Source of the DNA: a virus | Length of the DNA: 32,742 nt | Strand: one strand, 5' to 3' | Virus record (IMG/VR): IMGVR_UViG_3300024256_000034 | Coordinates: 1-32,742 of that record | Part shown: positions 4,412 through 27,966 of the stretch, in pieces | How the letters are laid out: the number at the start of each line of letters is the position of its first letter | Numbering within the stretch: position 1 is the stretch's first letter | Program-made: the position numbers and the translations under genes | The notes under the pieces: generated by a model | Seen by the model: only the letters and a program-made list of their open reading frames with translations | The model's database searches: none | What the model was told of the DNA's origin: nothing

Positions 4412-7400
4412 ATGCCAATAAATAATACTTTTACAATTGATTCATTATCCGCTTATGATTCTTTATTAAAGCAGAAAAATAAAAATGTATTACAGCAAGA
4501 TTTAAAATCTATAAAAAAACACATTGATTATTCTGACTTTAATAATTGAGTTCAATTTGGCAGTTCTCAATTGGAAGTTAATTCTGCTATTGTTGATATT
4601 GTACAAGATTATCCAGACTATGAAGAATATTTTAATGATGACACAGAATATATTATTAATGAAAATGGGGAGTGGTCTGGCTTTTTTGATAATAATCAAA
4701 TCGAATGAACTATTGATAGTATTACATCAGAAGCCGCAGACCATCATGCTTATTTTTGAGATGATGCTTATGTATTAACAAATGTATATGGTATAGGTAG
4801 TAATACTATCGAAACAGAAGTGGATAATCCATTTTCGTTATTGGGAGCAGGAGCTTATTCTTGACGTTCTAAAAATACAAATAATGGTGTAAATTTTCAC
4901 ATATATTACCCTCATTATAATGATGTTTCTACAAAACAAACAATTGATCATACAGATAAAGACGCTTTTTATAGGTATACAGTCTTTGTAAAATCTAATT
5001 TTGATTATGATCCAGGATCTATCACTGCTGCTCCGGGATTTCATTTTAAGACTCATCATTATAATAAACAATATAATGCATTAATGAAAAATTATAGTAC
5101 AGAAACTTATATAACTCCTTCTGATACTTATGGCGGGCACAATCAAAGTTTCTTTAAATATGTTAATTTTAGCAATCTCGAGCACGATTCTATGTCATCA
5201 CTGTCTGCGCATAGATGATATTTATTTGTTGGATATTATTGTCCTCGCGGTTATGATTTTTCTGATAAATCGGTTTCTAGTTGTATTTATGATGTTGCAG
5301 AAAAATATAAATTTGGCGATATTCATGGTATAGACATTAGAGATATCGCGCCATTATCGGAAGACGAAGAAAATGAAATTTATGATTACGGCTGTTTAAA
5401 TACTTATTTTGCAGGAGAAGCTATTACGTCAACAGGTGATCTTTCTGTTTGAAATCCACGAGTTGATAAGCTTGATGGGAATGAACCTAGTATTGATGAT
5501 ATTTTAGATAATAAATTTTATCCAAAAAATTATTGAGAAAAAAATGATGATGTGGAACTTTTATGGGATATTAATCAAGAAGAAGATAAACTATCATTAA
5601 CCTCGTTAAATACATCGAATTATGGCGGAGTTTGATATAATTTTTCAAATTCTAATTCGCCTTTAAAGAAAAATACGGAATATCAGATAAGTTTGTCTAT
5701 CAGTTCTTATACTGGTAATTGGAATCTTTATTTAAATCAAAGACAAGATGGGACTTTAGCGTTACCAATTAGCGGAGCGACTACGCAAATAACAATAGGC
5801 AGTGATATAACTACCGGAGATTATTCTTGAACGTTTATCACTCCGGACTTAGATTTATTAGAACTAGATCCGGGGAATACTACTTATCCTACGCCTATTT
5901 CTAATTATAATCTACATTTAAATAGTGCGATTGCGACACAAAATGAAATTATTATAGATAATATTTCTATAAAAGAGCTTTCAACAACCGCTTCTGACCA
6001 TAATAAATTAAATGTAGTAACAAATGAAAATTTTATTTCAGAGTATCTTGGATGGCGGGAATCTTCTTCTCATTATAGTGATTATGTTTTAAGAAATGAA
6101 TTATCGGTTTCTTCTATAACAGCCACTATTACGGGGACAACATATGGTAATAGTACCAGCGGAACTGAATATACAGTAGTTATACCTTATTTAGAACGGT
6201 TAACAAACGAATTCGGAACTAATTCTTTATTAAGACCAGAAGACATCGCTGTTTTAGAAGAATTGTTGACTAATGCATCAAACTTTGATAATGCAAATGC
6301 AAATTCGGTAGTTAATTCTATACCAACTGTCGTTTCAGAAGTTAATGACGAGCTAGATAGCTTGCTAAAAATAATTGGGCATGGTTTTGATAATTTCTTA
6401 ATAGCATTAAATGATTATAAGAAGATGTATAATTTTTCTTATAAAATGGACGAGATGCCAAATATAACCGTTCTCGACGCTTTAATTAAAAATATGGGCT
6501 TTGATAATATAGTCAATAATCTTAACTATAATATTATTCAAAAAGAAATTTTCTTTGATGGTAATTCATACTCAAAAACGGATTTAGAAAAACTAATAAA
6601 GATGTTTTTTGTTAATAATATTATTTATATTCTTAAATCAAAAGGCACGCGAGAAAGTATTAGATCATTTATTAGATTGCTTGGTTGACCCGAGAATTTA
6701 ATTTCTATTACGGAGCATATGGAGCTAGCAGAAAATATATCAGATTTAGAATATATTTATGATGAATTATATTTTAAAAAATATCCAATTTATTCAAACG
6801 GTGAAATAAAAGATATTAGCAGAACAAGTGCAGCCGGTAATAATATGATATATCACTTCGGTTTGTCTAACGTGGCCGGTATTAAAGACGGGACTTGTGA
6901 CGATTACGAAATTTTATCAGTAGACCACATAGGGTCGCAGGATATTAAGTTGAGTGTGAGCGCTAGCATTAGTAGTTTAGTTGTCAGTTATGATACTATT
7001 CCTATTTATTATACTTTTCCTTTGACGAGTAATGATTGAAGTCTTATAGATGATTATGAGCCTTTGTGCTTGATGTTTACAAGAGTTTCGAATAAGAATT
7101 ATATCTCTTTAAGTTATGTTATGCCCCAAATGAAATTAATAAATAGTGATAATTATACAAGCTTAACTGCGTATAATTACAGGGACAATATTTTAAATAC
7201 GACATATGAATTTGTGGTGTCAGTCGATTATAATTTTATGAATCTTAATCTAACTTGCGGCGATGCCGCGGCATCATCGAGTTTAGCTCATTACGCTTTA
7301 AAATTTATAGATGAACCTAACATTACAGAATTTAATTCGTTGTCTGCGGGCTTTATTAAAAATTTAGATTTATTAAAGTGAGATGCGACGAATAATTTTT

Positions 7401-9409
7401 CAGATATTTATATGTTTAGAAGTTATGCAGCAGAAGTTGAAGGCTTAGAAATTTTAAATAGTATTCCACTGAGAGACTCTTTAACGAGTTCTAGTACAGG
7501 AAGTATCGTATTAAAAGATATCCAATTTATTAAACAGCATAAACTATCTTTGAATTCTGGAATTATGCCGAGTTTCGAGGGCATTTTTATTGATGATATA
7601 AATAATGATTTTGCAGAGAATAAAATCAGAGCGAATGATTTATTAAAAATAAATATTAATCCTACAGATGTAATTAATCAGTTTATCGACGGCGTCTTAG
7701 CAGCTTCTTATAATATAGAAAACCTAGACGCGGTTTATGCAAAAGCATCAGATATGTATTCAGGACGTTGAAGCGAGCTCAGAACTTTAAAAGATAGAAT
7801 AACATTGTTTTTAAATACATATGAAGATTCTATAGATGTAAATACTTTTTTCGATGTAGTTTCAAAGGGCTATTCTAACAATATTTTTACTTTGATTAAA
7901 AATCTATTGGTTCCAGCCAAAGCAAATTTAGAATTTGGTTTGGTAGTAGAGAATGATAAATTATATGATAAAAAATATGCTTGAAAAGAATTAGAAAATT
8001 CTCAAGAAGTAAAAACATCTACTACAGAACATGGCATTTCGCATGAATCAGAAGATGTATTATTGGACGGCGAAGTCATAAGCGAAGTAAATACAGATTC
8101 AAATTTATTTACAGATAAAGCTGATATTAATTTGACAATCGAATCTACTACCGGCCTTGCCTTAAACTTGTCTAGTAATTTTATTTATAATATAAATGGA
8201 TCAGAAGGTACAAATAATTATCTTGCAAACGGAGAAGACGATATTTATAATGTAATCCGAGGAGAAGGATTGGTTATTAATATTGATGACGGAGATGCAA
8301 CAAGATTAATAACTTTTAATACAGAATACGAAACCTATGATAATATTTATATCGATTTAAACAAATGATGTTTAAGCAAGAAAATCTTTCAAGGTAATGA
8401 AAAGCAAATGATAGAGCTTGAATATTATTATAAGTATGATGGGGCAGAATTTGTTTTATTTTCCACTACGGCTTCTCTGAGCCCTCGATATGGAACTAAT
8501 ACGTGGGATTCGCCTAGTATTAAATGAAATATTTCTGCTGATAATATTATAGAAAATCCAGCTCATAAAGAATATTCTAAATTGGTTGTTAATAATGATA
8601 GTAATGAACTATTGGGTATTTCAGACGAAAATATATTAGAAATAGGTTTGGATAGATTTGGATTTAGCCTTCCTTATAGTAATGTTAATATGACGATTCC
8701 TTTTGGAGATGTTGATCTTCTTGAACCTGCTATAAATATTTTAAATCTGAGCGCCGATGATATTTCTAATAATAATGCAACAAATATTACAGTTAAATTA
8801 GATGAATATGGAAGACGTACTTTAACGTATAAAATTAATGATAATATCAATCTAAGCGCAGATGAAACTGTCATTCAAGCTAATGGCTCTTTAAATTTTG
8901 GAGATTCGCTTGGTAGTAGTGGAGACGAAGAAATTATTATAAGTATTTTTGCTTCGGATTCATACGAAGGAGAAAAAGGTAACGGATTAAAATTCGGTAT
9001 TGAATATGATAATAATATTGCAGGTTATGCAATTTCTGAGGTAGACAAAAATAAAAATGTTACAGTAAAAGTAGCAGAAGTTCCCTATACTTTATGAAAA
9101 ATTAGAGATTGTTTAGATAATAAGCAAATTGATAATGTTTTAAATATAACTTCTCTAAAAACTTCTTTAGATGGCATTATAGATTCAGGAATAACAGCTG
9201 ATGAATATTGACAATCTTATTTGCTTGGTGAGGTTTACTTAAAAAATGGATCAGGCAAGAATAAACAATCGAACAAAGTTTATAAAATCAAAATCAATAA
9301 TATATATAATTTAGACGATAGTATAGAATTACCTATACTATTTAAAGAAAAATCTAATATTATTGATGAAAATATTACGTTTGAAGAAAATCAAAAAAAT
9401 AATAAATAA
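4412..9409 (+). CDS. Giant 1665-aa tail/baseplate structural protein with jelly-roll carbohydrate-binding-like domain
   Basis: One frame is open from ATG 4412 to TAA 9407 when TGA is Trp; I read it codon by codon from 4412 to about 6270. Residues about 400-520 resemble a jelly-roll carbohydrate-binding module of the type common in phage tail proteins (NYGGVWYNF at the start, IIIDNISIKEL at the end). Around residues 740-759, ILKSKGTRESIRSFIRLLGW matches the 'SKGT..S...L..L.G' motif seen in large tail or baseplate proteins of T4-like and other myophages. Near the C-terminus (about residues 1520-1600), GEKGNGLKFGIEYDN followed by VTVKVAE resembles the G.GN.I.V...T...I repeats of tail sheath-like and adhesin domains. 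The exact virion location is inferred from these motifs and the neighbours. It is too large and too divergent to match to a named T4 gene product. Confidence 0.8.
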
Positions 9410-14755: not shown

Positions 14756-14758
14756 ATA
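14751..14758 (+). promoter_or_regulatory. Candidate T4-type late promoter element TATAAATA
   Basis: An exact match to the T4 late promoter core TATAAATA lies in the short gap between the structural run and the RuvC-like gene, 25 bases before ATG 14784. It overlaps the upstream stop codon. The same octamer also occurs by chance inside genes of this AT-rich genome, so position is the only real support. Confidence 0.25.
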
Positions 14759-14783: not shown

Positions 14784-15329
14784 ATGTCAATTGTTTTGGG
14801 TCTCGATATTTCTACATCTCATGTAGGAGTTTGTGTTTACGATAATAAAGAAAATAAAATTTTAAAAATAGATAATATATTGCTTTCTAAATTAGTAAAA
14901 GATGGCGATATCTTTAAAAAAACCGCGATTTTTAAAGAAGAAATAGAAAAAGTATTCGAGGAATTTCAAATCAATAAAACAATTATTGAAAAACCTTTAG
15001 ATGCATTTTCTATGGGCAGATCTTCGGCAGGCACTATTATTAAGTTACATAACTTTAATATTTTATGTCAGTATATTTTAAATGAAATGAACGTTAAATT
15101 TGAATCATTTGCTAGAACTACTATTCTGAAGAAAGTAACCGGTCGCGGAAGAAAGCCAAAGAAGTATACGAATATAGATACTAAAGAATGATTGGCTGTT
15201 TATTTTATTGCAGAGCAACCTGGCATCGAGTTGAAGTATTATAGCCGCGGAAAAAATGAAGGAAAACTTCACGCAGAATCTTACGATATGATTGATGCAT
15301 GAGCTTGTTGTAAATTTGTAAAGCCATAA
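14784..15329 (+). CDS. RuvC-like Holliday junction resolvase / RNase H-fold nuclease
   Basis: ATG 14784 lies behind a strong AGAGGGG ribosome binding site (14772-14778); the gene ends at TAA 15327 (181 aa). Two TGA are read as Trp (15189, and DAWACC near the end). The protein starts LGLDISTSHVGV, the first beta strand and catalytic Asp (D8) of the RuvC/RNase H fold. IIEKPL carries the second acid (E69), and ESYDMIDAW at residues 165-173 supplies the C-terminal acid (D168 or D171). The length is near that of bacterial RuvC (about 170 aa). It would resolve branched DNA during recombination-dependent replication or before packaging, where T4 uses endonuclease VII. It lies just upstream of the primase and the Mre11-Rad50 gene. 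Confidence 0.75.
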
Positions 15330-15503
15330 GTGGACAGTAAGTTTAAAAATTTTTATAGTTTGCTCATTTTTAAAAAAAATTAAGCCATTGTTATTTATAA
15401 GCTTAAAAAAAAGTTAATTATTTTAAAAATATTTATTTTAATTAAGAAAAACATGCCTATATATTATTAATTATAATATTTTAATATTATTATTTGGTCC
15501 TGT

Positions 15504-15565
15504 TTCAAAAGGGAAGCTTGCTTCCATTGTTTTAAGCGTTAGCGAAAAACAATTAATACAATGTT
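15504..15565 (+). repeat. 62-bp direct repeat, copy 1
   Basis: Identical over all 62 bases to 15619-15680. It contains a GC-rich hairpin GGAAGC-TT-GCTTCC (15512-15517 with 15520-15525), which in RNA has a CUUG tetraloop closed by G-C. A second potential stem follows, ATTGTTTT (15526-15533) with AAAACAAT (15546-15553). CATTGT (15525-15530) could instead pair with ACAATG (15558-15563), so the two pairings exclude each other. The first stem followed by ATTGTTTT also resembles an intrinsic terminator. Confidence 0.9.
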
Positions 15566-15618
15566 TAATAATAATAATAATAATTTACAATTTTAATTAT
15601 TATATTGTAATCAATAAA

Positions 15619-15680
15619 TTCAAAAGGGAAGCTTGCTTCCATTGTTTTAAGCGTTAGCGAAAAACAATTAATACAATGTT
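15619..15680 (+). repeat. 62-bp direct repeat, copy 2
   Basis: Exact copy of 15504-15565, offset by 115 bp. Hairpin arms are at 15627-15632/15635-15640 and 15641-15648/15661-15668. It ends three bases before the AAGAGG ribosome binding site and 12 bases before the primase ATG, so folding of this copy in mRNA could affect initiation of primase translation. Exact identity in an otherwise drifting AT-rich gap points to selection or recent duplication. Confidence 0.9.
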
Positions 15681-15692
15681 ATAAGAGGTAAT

Positions 15693-16610
15693 ATGTTAGA
15701 AAACATTAAAGATTTACTAGAAGACAAATTAGGTTCTTCAGATGGAAATGAAAATCAATTAAAATTTCATTGTCCTTATTGCGATCATCATAATAAAAAA
15801 TTAGAAGTAAGTATAGAAAAAAGTGTATTTCATTGCTGAATTTGTGATACTTCGGGAAGTTTGTCTAAGTTATTTAAAAAATTAGATATAAAATCCGATA
15901 TATTAAAATCGGAAAAGAGTCTAACAGAAGATCTATTAGCTCAAGCTATATCTGAGTTATCTGAAACATCAACCGATAATAAAAGTTATTCTACTATACC
16001 AAATACTTATAAACCAATTAGGTTTGCAGATAAAACAAATAACTATAAGCAAGCATATAGTTATTTATTTAAACGTAAACTTAAGTTATACGATATGATT
16101 AAGTATAATATTCATTACGATACAGAACATTACAATATTTTAATTCCGTCCTATGATTCCAAAGGTAAAGTAAATTATACTTTTGAAAGAAGTACCAATA
16201 CAAGTTTTAAAAAGAATCCAAGCGTATCAAAAAAAGATATTGTTTTTAACGAACTTTTTATAGATTGAAAAGAAGCTATAACTTTGGTAGAAGGTCCTTT
16301 CGATGCAATATCTGCTGGTAATAATAGCGTGCCTCTCCTTGGCTCCACTCTAGATGATGATTATTATTTATTTAAACAATTAATAAAACATAAACCTTGT
16401 ATATATATTGCGTTAGATTATGACGCAAGAAAGAAGCAAGAGAAAATAGCGAATTTATTATATTCATATGGATTACAAGTTTATACAATAGATCTGCCTA
16501 AAGACTTAGATATCAACGAATTAGGTATGTTTAAATTTAATAAGTATAAACAAAATGCAAAATTATATACAGAAATGACAACGTTATTAACGGCATTAGA
16601 AACCTTATAG
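15693..16610 (+). CDS. DNA primase, DnaG-type (zinc ribbon + Toprim)
   Basis: It runs from ATG 15693, behind AAGAGG, to TAG 16608 (305 aa). It synthesises RNA primers for lagging-strand replication, the role of gp61 in T4. The zinc ribbon is CPYC (C27, C30) and CWIC (C48, C51). The Trp between the last two Cys is TGA (15837), a position often Trp in CHC2-type fingers. The Toprim domain shows LVEGPFDA (E200) and ALDYDARKK (D242, D244), the metal-binding acids. Another TGA (16266) precedes the Toprim. It is shorter than bacterial DnaG (about 600 aa) and lacks a visible helicase-binding domain, as usual for phage primases. The Mre11-Rad50 gene starts nine bases downstream. Confidence 0.88.
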
Positions 16611-16618
16611 AGGGAATA

Positions 16619-19600
16619 TTGAAAAAGAAAATAGTTTTTATATCAGACCTACACATACGAAACGTTTCAAGATTTAAAGAATACGCAAAAGCCTTTACCG
16701 AAACCGTTAAAGAAATTAAAAAAATTAAACCAGATTATATCGTCAATGGCGGCGATACCTTCCACCAAAAATTAACATTATCTCCAGAAAGTGTTTATTT
16801 AGCTAGAATATTTTTTACGAATTTAGGCAAAATCTGTCCTGTTTACTCTATCGTTGGCAATCACGATTGTAATATGAATAATTTAAATCGAATGGATGCT
16901 ATATCTTCCGCACTAAAAGATATACCAAATAACATCGTCTTGAAGCATTCTGATATTTATAAAATAGATGAAGATCTAAATATCGGTTTGTGTTCTATCT
17001 TAGATAGTCCTTCTAAATGACCTTTCGATAAGTTAGATAAGACTAAAATAAATATAGCGGTATATCATGGCCCATTAATCGGAGCAGTAAATGATCAGAA
17101 TTTTAAGCTAGAAAATTCAACTTTGAAACCTTCTTTATTTAAAAATTATGATTTTGTATTTGCGGGAGACATACATTCTAATTTTGCTTACGATAAGCTA
17201 AATAAAACTCCTAGAATATGATCTATAGGTAATTTAATTCAGCAAAATTTCGGCGAATCAGATATAAAAGGCTTCTTACTTTTAGATATTAAAAGTAAAG
17301 ATGATTTTAATCTAGAATTTAAACAAATTAAAAATGATTACAATTATTTGACTATAAATTTAATAGAAGAAGATTTGGAGAATAATAAAAAAACAATCAA
17401 TAAAGAATTAAAAAAACTTCATATAACCAAGCATACAAACTTACGCATTATATTTCATACTGAAAAAATAATAAGCGAAGATCACAAAAACAATATTAAG
17501 CATTTTATAGCAGATAAATATGGAATCGATGTTGCTTTTTCTGAAAAGAGCATAGTTGTCAATAGTAATGAAGAGTTACAGGATTTAGAGAACAAAACAT
17601 TAAATTTTAATAACGTGACAGTACAAAATAAATTATTAGAAAACTACATCAAACATAAAGATGGCTATAAAAATATTTTAAATGACAAAGAAAAATTATT
17701 CAAACTAAATGAAAATATAAATGAAAGCTTAGGAAACGTTGATTCGGAACAAGATAATACAGATTGAACTATAGAAAGTCTGGCGTTTCAAAATATTTTC
17801 TGTTTTAAAGAAAACAATTTCATAGACTTTAATAATTTAAAAGGCGTCATAGGCCTCTATGGTCCGAATGCCTCGGGCAAAAGCAGTATTTTTAATATAA
17901 TAACGTTTGTAATTTTTGGTAAGACCTTAAAAAAAACAAATATGCTAAACGTATTAAATCATGATTCAAATTCTGGTTTTATTAAAATTATACTTAAAAA
18001 AGGTGAAAAAAAATATAGAATTACTAGAATATTAAATTCTAATAAAAAAGCCTCGGCAGTTAAAGCTATTGTTAATTTTGAAGACTGGCGTAATGATGAA
18101 TGAAAATCGTTAAACGAGGAAACACTTCCTCTTACAAATAAAAAAATTACAGATTTTTTTGGAGATTTAAATGAATTTTTAATGACGTCTATGAGCACAC
18201 AAGATAATTATAATATTTTTATTGATCTTGGAAACACAGATAGAAAAGAAATAATTATGAGATATTTAGGATTGGGTATCTTTAATAAATTACATGAAAA
18301 AACGACAGAACAAATCAAAGAAGTAAAAGCGGTAATAGCATCTATTGATAATTTTGAAGAAGACTTGACAGAATTAAAAATCTATAAGAGAAAGTTGAAA
18401 GATTTAAAGTTAGAAGACGCATCAAATAAAAAGCAAATTAAAAAATTAATAAAAGAGATAATAGAGCATGAATCTGATAAGCTAAAAACCAAACAAAAAA
18501 TTACTTCTATAATTATGCCAGTAGGTGGCACGGCCTCTTGTGATGATGGTATAATTCGTTTAAGTAGGCTCAAAAGCGAGATCTCTACAAAATTATCGCA
18601 AGCCGTGAATATAGCTAAAAATTTAAAGAATGAAAAAAATATAGATATTAAATTAGAACAAAAGCTGAAAGCTGATTATAAAAGATTAAACGAATCAAAA
18701 ATAAGTTTTGAGACAGAACTCAAATTACTGAAAAAAGAAGTTTTAAATAATGATAATTTAGATATAGATTGCGATGTTATTTCATGTAAATTATTAATAG
18801 ATCATAAAAAGAAAAAAGACGTCAAAGAACAGATTTTAGAAATAGAAAAGCATTTATTAGAATTACGCGCAGATATGGATAAAATAAAATCTAAGTTATT
18901 TAATATAAATGATTTACGGTCTAAAAAAGAAAATATTATTTCTTTAAAAGATTCACTTACACAAACTAAGAAAAAATTGGAAGAATTTAACGAAAACAAA
19001 AAGCTTTTAGAGAAGAATAAAGAGACGATTAAAAAGAATATTGTAATAGAAAAAGAAGTCGAATTATTAAACAATAAAATAAATACGGCGAAGATAGCTC
19101 AGAGTAGAAGCGAAACGGAAATGAGATCTAATAAAGTACTCAAAAAAGAATACGAAGCAAGAATAGAAGTCGTTGACGCAAATTTAGAAAACGTATCCAA
19201 GATGAAGAAAGAATACGAGATATTAGATACCTATAGGAATATAATCAATCCAAATGCGTTACCTAATACTTTGCTCCATAATTATTTAAATAAGTTTGAA
19301 ACAGAAGTCAATAGAATACTTAATGATTCTACGAATCTATTTATTAAAACAGAATTAATTCGTAAAAAGAATAACAAGTCAGTTGATTTGGATATTCAAT
19401 ATAAAAGCAAATCTAGCTCTAAATTTTTGCCTATCGAATTAGCCTCCGGGGCAGAGAAGTTATTTTTGTCCATAGCAATTCGAGTAGGTTTAATTAAACT
19501 AACCTCTTTGCAAAAAACAGATACATTAATTATTGATGAAGGATTCTCGTCATTACATGCTTCAAATATAAGTAAATTAGGGCCTTATTTTGATACAATT

Positions 19601-19717
19601 AAAGATAATTTTAAAAGAATAATATTAGTGACCCACATCGAACAAATTCAAGATTTACCGGATACTATCATAAATATTAAGAAAAATGATAAAGGCGAGA
19701 CACATATTAATATTTAA
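16619..19717 (+). CDS. Mre11-Rad50 (SbcD-SbcC; T4 gp47-gp46) fusion protein
   Basis: A single frame of 1032 aa runs from TTG 16619 (ribosome binding site GAGGG four bases upstream) to TAA 19715. Residues 1-300 are an Mre11/SbcD calcineurin-type nuclease: SDLH (D10, H12), GGDTFH (D46, H49), GNHD (N81-D83), YHG (H150), AGDIH (D184, H186) and IGNLIQQNFGE. A linker follows. The Rad50/SbcC ATPase then begins at about residue 384: Walker A GPNASGKSS (K421), a long coiled coil (about 560-880), signature ASGAEKLFLSIA (942-953), Walker B LIIDEGFSSL, and THIEQ. In T4 and bacteria the two subunits are separate genes. The junction codon is TGA (17765, residue 383) with no ATG, GTG or TTG start or ribosome binding site at the ATPase start, so with TGA=Trp this is one protein. 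The role is end resection for recombination-dependent replication. The hook apex lacks CxxC and shows C718-x4-C723. Confidence 0.9.
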
Positions 19718-24819: not shown

Positions 24820-24882
24820 ATGCAAATAAAAGCAATCTTCTATATATAATTACACTATGATAAAAATAAGGTATTGATAGAA

Positions 24883-27800
24883 ATGGCAAAAAATAGCAAA
24901 AGTTATAAGGCAGAAAAAATTCTGCCAGACGAAAATAAATATGTTGCCGACGTAAAAACCGAGCCCAAAACATCGAATCTATATAATCAATATAGTAAAG
25001 ACACTATAAAAGCCTCGTTCCCTAAAAATACTCCAAAAGCAAAAGAAAATTTACATTTATCCCCTTCTATTCGAGATGAAAAAAAGTTATTCAAAAAACT
25101 TAAGAAGATGATTACCGGCCCAGATATTTTACCTAATTTAGATAAATATATTCAAGGTAAAATGACTCGTAAACAGGCGGAAAAAGTTGCAAGATATGAA
25201 GAATACTTTAAAAAAATTCAAAGTATGACATATTTTGGAGTTATGCAGAATGATGGTGATCGTAGACTTCGTTATATGGAATATGATCGAATGGAATGGA
25301 TGTCCCCGGAAGTAGGAAGAGCCCTAGATGCATTAGCCTCTGATGCCACAACTTTGAACGAAGAAAATCAGGTTGTAAAGGTTATGTCGAAGCATGGCAA
25401 AATAACAGAAGAAGCCAATGATTTATTTAATAATATATTAGATATCAAATCAAATTTATTTTATTGAATAAGAGATACGCTAAAGTACGGAGATAGTTTC
25501 TTTACTTTACATATAGACGCCCATGACGGGATTAAAAAAGCAGTGCCAGCGCCAGTTGAGCAATGTGAAAGAGAAGTTGGATATGATGAGCAAAATCCAT
25601 TCGCGCATAGGTTTAAAATTGCTGGTTTAGGTGAAGAATATTTGCAACCATATGAGGTTGCTCATTTTAGATTGAAAGCTTCTGTAGATTTTGGTGAATA
25701 TGGAAAATCAGTTCTAGAAAATGCAAGGCGTATTTGAAGGCAATTAATTACAATTGAAGATAGTATGCTTATTTACCGTCTTGTCAGAGCGCCCGAAAGA
25801 AGAATCTTTTATTTTGACGTAGGTAATTTAAGTCCAGAATCCGTAGAAGCTGCGATTAACAAATACTCTTCTGAAATGAAGAAAGAAAAAATCTATGATA
25901 CAGAAGGTAATATAGATTATCGTATGAGCCTTCAGCCGCTTCATAAAGACACAAAAGTACCTTTATTGGATAATAGAATTTTAACATTAGAAGAATTAGC
26001 AAAAGAATATGAAGAAGGCAAAGTTAATTGAACATATTCGATTGACGATAAAACCCATAAGCTAAAGCCAGGCAAGATTAAGTGAGCTGGGAAAAACTAC
26101 AGCGACGCTAAGATCTTAAAAGTAGAATTAGATAATGGTAGTTATGTCCTATCGCATCCTTCACACCCTTTTATTCTTAGAGATGGTAGTTCGCTAGCCG
26201 CAGAGGATTTAAAGCCTTATATGAGCTTAATGCCGTTCTATTCGAAGATAAATAATAGCGGTTACGAAGAGACGTATGAGCCTGGGACTAATAAAACAAA
26301 AATGACGCATACATTTGTCGCGCGGGATACTTATAACGATGAATTTAAAGTTTTAGACGAGAATCACGAAACGAATGATAGAAAAAAGAAGAGTGTCCCA
26401 ATCGTGCATCACAAAGGAATCACGGGTTGAAAAAATAATAAGCTAAATAATAGTCCCGAAAATTTAATTCCAATGAATTGGGAAGAGCACGCGACTTGAC
26501 ATAAAATTCAATGTAATTTGACGTTAAATAACCCCGAAGCTTTAGAAAAGCGTAAGAAAAGATTAATAGAGTATAATAAAACTAAAGCAAATAGTGATAA
26601 TACAATCTATTATAATAAATTATATAAAAAAGCAGAACATATGGGAGAGATTTATAATAATTCTGAATTGCATAAATTTCATAATATAATTCGTAGAAAA
26701 GCTATGAAAGATCATTGAAAAAATGGAGGCCATAAAATCCCATCTGTGATTTTCGATAAGTATATTTGAAATAGTCTGAATGACGCCATAAATACTAATA
26801 AGATAATAAGTCAAAAGTCCGCAGTAGATTTTATTAATAATAATTTAATTGACTATTTAATTAAATTAAATCCAGCTTGTACGAAATTAATAAATAATAA
26901 AAAAATATCAAAAATATTAATAAAAGCAAAAATACAAGAATTAGGATTTAAAGATTTTGAAGATTATCATAAAAATAATATAATAAATCATAAAGTTAAA
27001 TCTATTTCCGTATGGCACGAAACGGAAGATGTTTATTGTATGACAATTATAGGTGATAATGGCCAGAATGATAGACATAACTTTGCTATTATACCTGAAA
27101 ATTGTATGGAAAATGATAAATCGAGCCCTTATAAGATGACCAGACATTCAGGTTTATTCGTAAAAAACTCGGTGGAAGAAGATATTTTTGTACCAACTCG
27201 TGGTGGACATTCTAATACTAAGATCGAAACCCTGCCTGCTCAGCAATGGGCCGTAATTGACGACGTTAAATATCTTCATGATAAGTTTATCGCAGCCTTA
27301 GCTGTACCAAATGATTATCTTGGCTACGAGAACTCAATGGGAAGCACAACGACACTGGGAAACCAAGATATTAGATATTCAAAGTTTGTTGAAAGAATTC
27401 AAAGATCTATTTTAGAAACGCTTAATGATATTTTAATGATTCATCTTTATATTAAAGGATATAAGAGCCTGGATCTATCTGAAATTGAATTAAGTTTAAC
27501 TAACCCTTCGCATATAAATGAATTGCAACAACTTGAAATTTTAGCATCAAGATTCGACTTATATCAAAATGCAAAAGAAAATGGTATTTATAGCTCTTAT
27601 TGATTAAAGAAAAATATTTTAGATTTAACTGACGAAGAAATCGAGCAAGAAGAATTAAATGTATTAAGAGATAATATTGTAGACTTTACAAAGATGCAGG
27701 CGCAAGAAGGTGTTTTATTAACTGTTAAAGATGTATTAGATTATAACAATACTCAAAATCAAGCTGCAGCTAATGCGATGGGTATGGACGCTGGAATGCC

Positions 27801-27966
27801 AGGCGGCGCCGGCGGAATGAGTGACTTTGGCCCTAGCGATGACTTCGGAGACATGGGAGGCGCAGATATAGGCGGTATAGAACCAGATATAGATACTTCT
27901 ATGGGAGATGCCGAAGATCTAGCTGACGAAGTTGAAGACATTGATTTAGCAACTCCGGAAATTTAA
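24883..27966 (+). CDS. Portal protein (T4 gp20-like) interrupted by an HNH intein
   Basis: It runs from ATG 24883, with AAGG 11 bases upstream, to TAA 27964: 1027 aa of precursor and about 616 aa after removal of the intein (residues 352-762). The portal forms the dodecameric packaging vertex. The exteins carry T4-type portal features: RYMEYDRMEWMSPEVGRALD, VAHFRLKASVDFGEYGKSVL, RAPERRIFYFDVGNLS and NIDYRMSLQ before the insertion, and SVEEDIFVPTRGG, IETLPAQQ and LAVPNDYLGYE after it. The C-terminus is Gly, Asp and Met-rich. An alternative TTG start at 24874 is possible but worse placed. The splice residues are odd (Pro at intein position 1), so efficient splicing needs testing. The gene follows the terminase by 63 bases and abuts the nucleotidyltransferase-domain gene. 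Confidence 0.9.
25936..27168 (+). mobile_element. 411-aa intein with HNH homing endonuclease, inserted in the portal
   Basis: The N-terminal splicing block reads PLHKDTKVPLLDNRILTLEE, matching phage inteins that start CLxxDTKIPLLDGRTLT but with Pro in place of Cys1. WTYSIDD, KPGKIKWAGKNY and VELDNGSYVLSHPSHPFILR follow (block B; Thr of TxxH is His here). Block F is VYCMTII...DRHNFAI and block G is SGLFVKN, followed by extein Ser. The penultimate residue is Lys rather than His. An alternative C-terminus at PEN|C (27102) is less likely, because SGLFVKN|S matches block G and restores a portal-like SVEEDIFVP. Removal joins YRMSLQ to SVEEDIF. Boundaries are inferred from these blocks. The element would home into intein-less portal alleles. 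Confidence 0.82.
26404..26505 (+). other. HNH endonuclease motif inside the intein
   Basis: VHHKGITG (intein residues 158-159 are HH), then KLNNSPENLIPMNWEEHATW and the following HK, give the H-H...N...H pattern of HNH homing nucleases. These commonly show 'HH.d..kLNNsP.NL..m...eH...H'. The key His, Asn and His residues are present, so the nuclease looks intact although the splicing blocks are atypical. Downstream helical segments (26600-26990) are probably its DNA-recognition region. Confidence 0.8.

Follow-up and report, generated by a model that had tools for sequence, protein, structure and literature searches.

Two identical 62-nt structured repeats before the primase gene of an uncultured T4-like phage, tentatively read as a duplicated weak terminator/attenuator cassette

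Two identical, structured repeats of 62 nt lie directly in front of the primase gene on a virus fragment of 32,742 bases (IMGVR_UViG_3300024256_000034), and the question is what they do there. The fragment comes from an uncultured T4-like phage and was analysed over its whole length, here called the window. The original prediction offered a two-state RNA leader, a tandem attenuator or terminator, or a replication-origin element. Our tentative answer, to which we give a probability of about 0.42, is that the 62-nt block arose by recent duplication of a weak terminator/attenuator cassette and stands where the primase transcription unit begins.

Results

The main genes of the fragment all lie on the + strand. 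TGA encodes tryptophan, for without that reading stop codons would interrupt the frames of the terminase, primase, resolvase and SbcCD-like genes; the terminase gene has 11 TGA codons read as W. T4-type genes in the window include a prohead protease and a portal gene with an intein, beside the terminase. The intein, in the portal gene at 24874-27966, matches Pfam Intein_splicing over residues 363-727 (E 3.8e-11). On the tail side, a frame of 1665 residues at 4412-9409 has no Pfam match. The last gene upstream of the repeats encodes a RuvC-like Holliday junction resolvase (14784-15329, + strand; PHROG 159, E 1.1e-13), and the DNA primase, with zinc ribbon and Toprim domains and TGA read as W, follows at 15693-16610 on the same strand. 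Next comes a fused SbcD/SbcC-like protein (16619-19717). The closest relative that spans the locus is contig G003/L005, with 42% identity in the primase, and L005 alone among 127 primase loci has in-frame TGA. The closest relative by terminase, L003 (98%), a contig of 4.5 kb, lacks the RuvC–primase locus. Neither the window nor L003, L004, L005, L131 or L132 yielded a tRNA or tmRNA gene.

Between the resolvase and primase genes lies a non-coding gap of 363 nt (15330-15692, + strand). With TGA read as W throughout, the second-longest gap of the fragment is 54 nt, which bears out the claim that this is the only long non-coding gap. It also holds the lowest-GC stretches of 100, 150 and 300 nt in the fragment. 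Alignment confirms that the two + strand copies, at 15504-15565 and 15619-15680, are identical at 62/62 positions, which is certainly beyond chance. The copies start 115 nt apart; the unit has 32% GC, and the spacer between them (15566-15618, + strand), with 5.7% GC, can itself form a weak hairpin (–5.5 kcal/mol). The last base of copy 2 is 15680, and the primase ribosome binding site, AGAGG by inspection, occupies 15684-15688 on the + strand, so that the predicted distance of three bases is correct. Short open frames crossing the repeats are present.

The flanks of the two copies are distinct. Exact identity despite unrelated flanks points to a recent duplication or gene conversion. Tandem duplication of the unit plus spacer is unsupported, as 359 of 1000 simulated flanks align equally well, and a mini-CRISPR was judged a poor fit, given repeats of 62 nt and a spacer of 5.7% GC. 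The related DNA that was fetched, 2.47 Mb in all, has exact repeats of at least 40 nt lying 60-500 nt apart at two loci, both within open frames (899 and 112 codons); no other non-coding pair of this kind was found there.

Folding predicts two abutting hairpins in each copy. Hairpin 1 (15512-15525 in copy 1, 15627-15640 in copy 2, + strand) corresponds to the predicted GGAAGC-TT-GCTTCC hairpin and folds as 5 bp closed by a CUUG loop; ATTGTTTT follows it. Hairpin 2 (15526-15553 and 15641-15668, + strand) is the predicted ATTGTTTT/AAAACAAT stem, which forms with a pair probability of 0.70-1.00 in both copies when the leader 15470-15740 is folded. The competing CATTGT/ACAATG pairing, in contrast, has a probability of 0.00 in both copies of that leader. 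The unit as a whole folds at –13.8 kcal/mol (z –2.4), a value equalled by 6 of 200 shuffles, and taken alone the hairpins reach –4.2 and –7.6 kcal/mol. About 3% of simulated 62-mers contain both stems, and the predicted hairpins therefore provide only modest evidence beyond chance. The fold of the unit as single-stranded DNA is similar to that of the RNA.

A different alternative structure emerges when both copies are present. When 15470-15740 is folded as a leader, pairing between the copies (probability 0.9-1.0) displaces hairpin 1 in both, and over 15504-15692 the copy–copy structure is favoured by 7.2 kcal/mol over the local hairpins (–34.8 against –27.6 kcal/mol). Of the predicted two-state leader, the particular CATTGT/ACAATG switch finds no support; an alternative state of another kind, copy against copy, is energetically favoured. 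Such pairing is a by-product of duplicating a palindrome and is by itself no evidence of function. The whole gap folds better than 100 of 100 shuffles. Hairpin 2 is not seen to sequester the ribosome binding site in the ensemble, where parts of the site are paired with other bases.

Further copies were sought in several collections. A scan of the genome, as the original prediction had proposed, finds no third or diverged copy within the 32.7-kb fragment, and the scattered copies expected of a simple mobile repeat are excluded within that same fragment. The best hit of an unfiltered structure-model search of the fragment beyond the two copies has 16.2 bits and is the palindrome on the opposite strand. 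Parts of the element of 53, 19 and 21 bases have no exact match in viral contigs, nor does a part of 20 bases in bacterial genomes. With blastn, the region has no match in phages, the 62-nt unit has short weak matches in phages (best E 0.1 among the matches listed), and plasmids give a single weak match (E 0.5). In 46 sources, structure-model searches return only the two copies and a weak match (E 4.5) to the opposite strand of the palindrome; another 80 loci (best E 1.5) and 15 whole records (best E 2.97) yield no convincing match. Rfam gives no gathering-level match for the element; a hit to BsrC (E 3.2) on the opposite strand is put down to chance. No relative carrying the 62-nt element was found among the sources, loci and records searched, and viral contigs searched with RuvC gave no relative either.

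The position before primase can nevertheless be compared between phages. A crude frame test was applied to 128 loci, and 124 remained after setting aside one locus with no match and three lacking a measurable gap; none of the 124 has a gap of at least 200 nt before primase by this test, which swallows some real gaps, and the longest is 152 nt. Strong terminators, defined as a hairpin with a U-run that lies within 200 nt of primase and is at least as stable as –8 kcal/mol, occur in 7/124 relatives against 9/635 random stretches (p 0.008), counts that are not independent because some relatives resemble one another (L031 and L032 are 97% alike). Six of them, at –11 to –17 kcal/mol, start 52-72 nt before primase (L033 72, L020 66, L046 68, L031 69, L032 69 and L213 52 nt), and the seventh, in L164, lies 183 nt before it. 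Both isolates examined, phages immuto (61 nt) and Mel-JY01 (67 nt), also have a terminator that starts in the 52-72 nt range. In five relatives (L033, L020, L046, L031 and L032) U-run and sigma-70-type promoter form one fused element; promoters of this type are also overrepresented upstream of primase (33/124 against 21/620). The primase start is thus a possible recurrent gene-boundary slot across related phages.

In the window, the two hairpins are the sole + strand terminator-like sites outside genes, and in copy 2 hairpin 1 begins 66 nt upstream of the primase start codon. The terminator score of this hairpin is –52; relatives score between –19 and +51. A promoter scan that covers hosts with sigma-70-type promoters gives a score of 0 for the 100 nt upstream of primase.

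A promoter-like box, TATATATTA (15458-15466, + strand), lies upstream of both copies. It is of the kind found in the other gaps of at least 40 nt, and its promoter function is putative. TATATA is present in 5/9 window gaps of at least 20 nt, including 4/4 of at least 40 nt, and in 8/10 hand-picked gaps of contig G003; simulation gives an expectation of 1.4 of 5 and 1.0 of 10 gaps. TATATA-type boxes in the longer intergenic gaps lie at 14757, 15458, 19727, 24841 and 29951, and are perhaps phage late promoters. Elsewhere the distance from box to gap end is 23-54 nt, whereas the box at 15458 lies 234 nt before the gap end, so that both copies fall between box and primase. In G003, three gaps contain terminator hairpins followed by TATATA boxes.

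Discussion

We favour a boundary cassette because terminators of some relatives start 52-72 nt before primase and the hairpin of copy 2 falls within that range. The block lies at the junction where the transcription unit of the tail genes and RuvC would give way to the primase unit. In the RNA of each copy, a short GC-rich hairpin would be followed by a U-rich stretch that adjoins a second, AT-rich hairpin. The tandem copies would act as weak terminators or attenuators and lower the read-through that reaches primase from two sources, the tail genes and the 15458 TATATA-type box. We infer that the copies are transcribed, stop polymerase and set the primase level. Several observations weigh against a cassette. 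Hairpin 1 is far weaker than the terminators of relatives (–4.2 against –11 to –17 kcal/mol), no sigma-70 promoter follows it and the promoter-like box lies upstream of both copies instead. Moreover, 117/124 relatives lack a strong terminator before primase, the L005 gap is a bare 29 nt, and the unit is not known to be conserved. The predicted tandem attenuator or terminator is thus favoured by the terminators at the same distance in relatives and disfavoured by the poor terminator score of the hairpin itself.

A further reading, which uses the predicted copy–copy pairing, is a tandem RNA switch that interacts with itself: copy 1 alone would fold and attenuate, and copy 2, once made, would pair with copy 1, undo both short hairpins and let polymerase enter primase. 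We consider this highly improbable. If it were true, one duplicated element would be both terminator and antiterminator, and copies that regulate each other would form a very compact RNA switch built by duplication.

The same pairing enters a reading in which the repeats belong to a structured 5′ leader of primase mRNA that starts near the 15458 box, and in which the copies, by mutual pairing or by an effect on RNA polymerase like that of HK022 put RNA, tune transcription or translation. The boxes in all four window gaps of at least 40 nt, the long distance that places both copies in the leader here, the 7.2 kcal/mol gained by copy–copy pairing and the fold of the whole gap all speak for it. 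Yet mutual pairing follows from duplication of a palindrome, Rfam has no match for the element and the boxes are putative promoters, and we hold such a leader to be rather unlikely. Less probable still is that the repeats have no function and reflect either a recent duplication that is neutral or a mistake in assembly. This would agree with a structure that is modest, with the failure to find a copy elsewhere in the collections searched and with the lack of a relative with the gap among the loci tested; against it stand the distinct flanks of each copy, the position in a regulatory slot and the fact that the 2.47 Mb of fetched DNA contain no other such non-coding repeat.

An AT-skew step, from about 0.02 up to about 0.17, coincides with the gap at about 15-16 kb; it is absent at 4-fold sites and therefore probably comes from protein composition. 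ACAAT/ATTGT iterons number 6 against 1.1 expected, a count that some 5-mer attains in 92 of 500 simulations. These observations bear on a replication origin, in which transcription from the 15458 box would open the AT-rich stretch or an initiator would bind the repeats. The predicted origin element keeps its AT-richness, since the lowest-GC stretches of 100-300 nt adjoin primase, and T4 oriF and oriG consist of a promoter and an AT-rich unwinding element (PMC3016281). A skew change, an iteron array and a strand switch were not found in the fragment: GC skew does not turn, the AT-skew step is missing at 4-fold sites, the main genes are all on one strand and ACAAT loses its significance after correction for the choice of 5-mer. 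We regard an origin as quite improbable. That the copies are two DNA operators, with dyads for a protein dimer on the same helix face, is about equally improbable; each copy has two adjacent dyads and 115 bp correspond to 10.95 turns at 10.5 bp, although a single spacing is weak evidence and no regulator gene was recognised among the scanned proteins. Both the origin and a put-like RNA are less likely than the terminator/attenuator cassette.

The duplication is real, exact, rare and in an expected regulatory slot, while the function of the element is probably ordinary. The block marks where this recoded uncultured T4-like phage probably divides its tail genes from its replication genes.

Three known systems resemble parts of this arrangement. 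The HK022 put RNAs are described in PMC9378689 as about 60-70 nt long with two stem-loops and in two copies per phage, one downstream of each early promoter, where the RNA binds RNA polymerase and suppresses termination. The size of 62 nt, the two predicted hairpins and the two copies are alike, whereas both copies here stand in tandem in one leader, and the only candidate for a put-type early promoter upstream of them is the promoter-like box at 15458. The present locus resembles the T4 origins oriE, oriF and oriG in its direct repeats and in an AT-rich stretch, a candidate unwinding element, after the promoter-like box. According to PMC3016281, oriE consists of iterons, a cluster of 12-nt repeats; here there are two 62-nt repeats instead, and motif enrichment is not significant. 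Unlike an R-loop origin of the oriF/oriG type, the locus has no strand switch or skew turn.

The PeSL promoter-terminator cassettes of T4-like phages, reportedly described by Arbiol in 2010 and Comeau in 2014, are the third system. A PeSL cassette has an intrinsic terminator stem-loop, an adjacent early promoter, several dispersed copies in the genome and an intergenic place at a module boundary. The block shares this last feature, being intergenic between RuvC and primase, and, like PeSL, it marks a gene boundary in a T4-like phage with a stem-loop that has a U-rich tail. Terminator-promoter composites occupy this same slot before primase in several relatives. It differs in that the hairpin is too weak for an intrinsic terminator (–4.2 kcal/mol, score –52), in that no recognisable promoter follows it (sigma-70 score 0) and in that two identical copies lie side by side, with none elsewhere in 32.7 kb. 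These cassettes are treated in PMC4503421 and PMC3950731. Because its terminator and promoter features were tested and differ from those of PeSL, we do not file the 62-nt element under that name, though it may well work like one.
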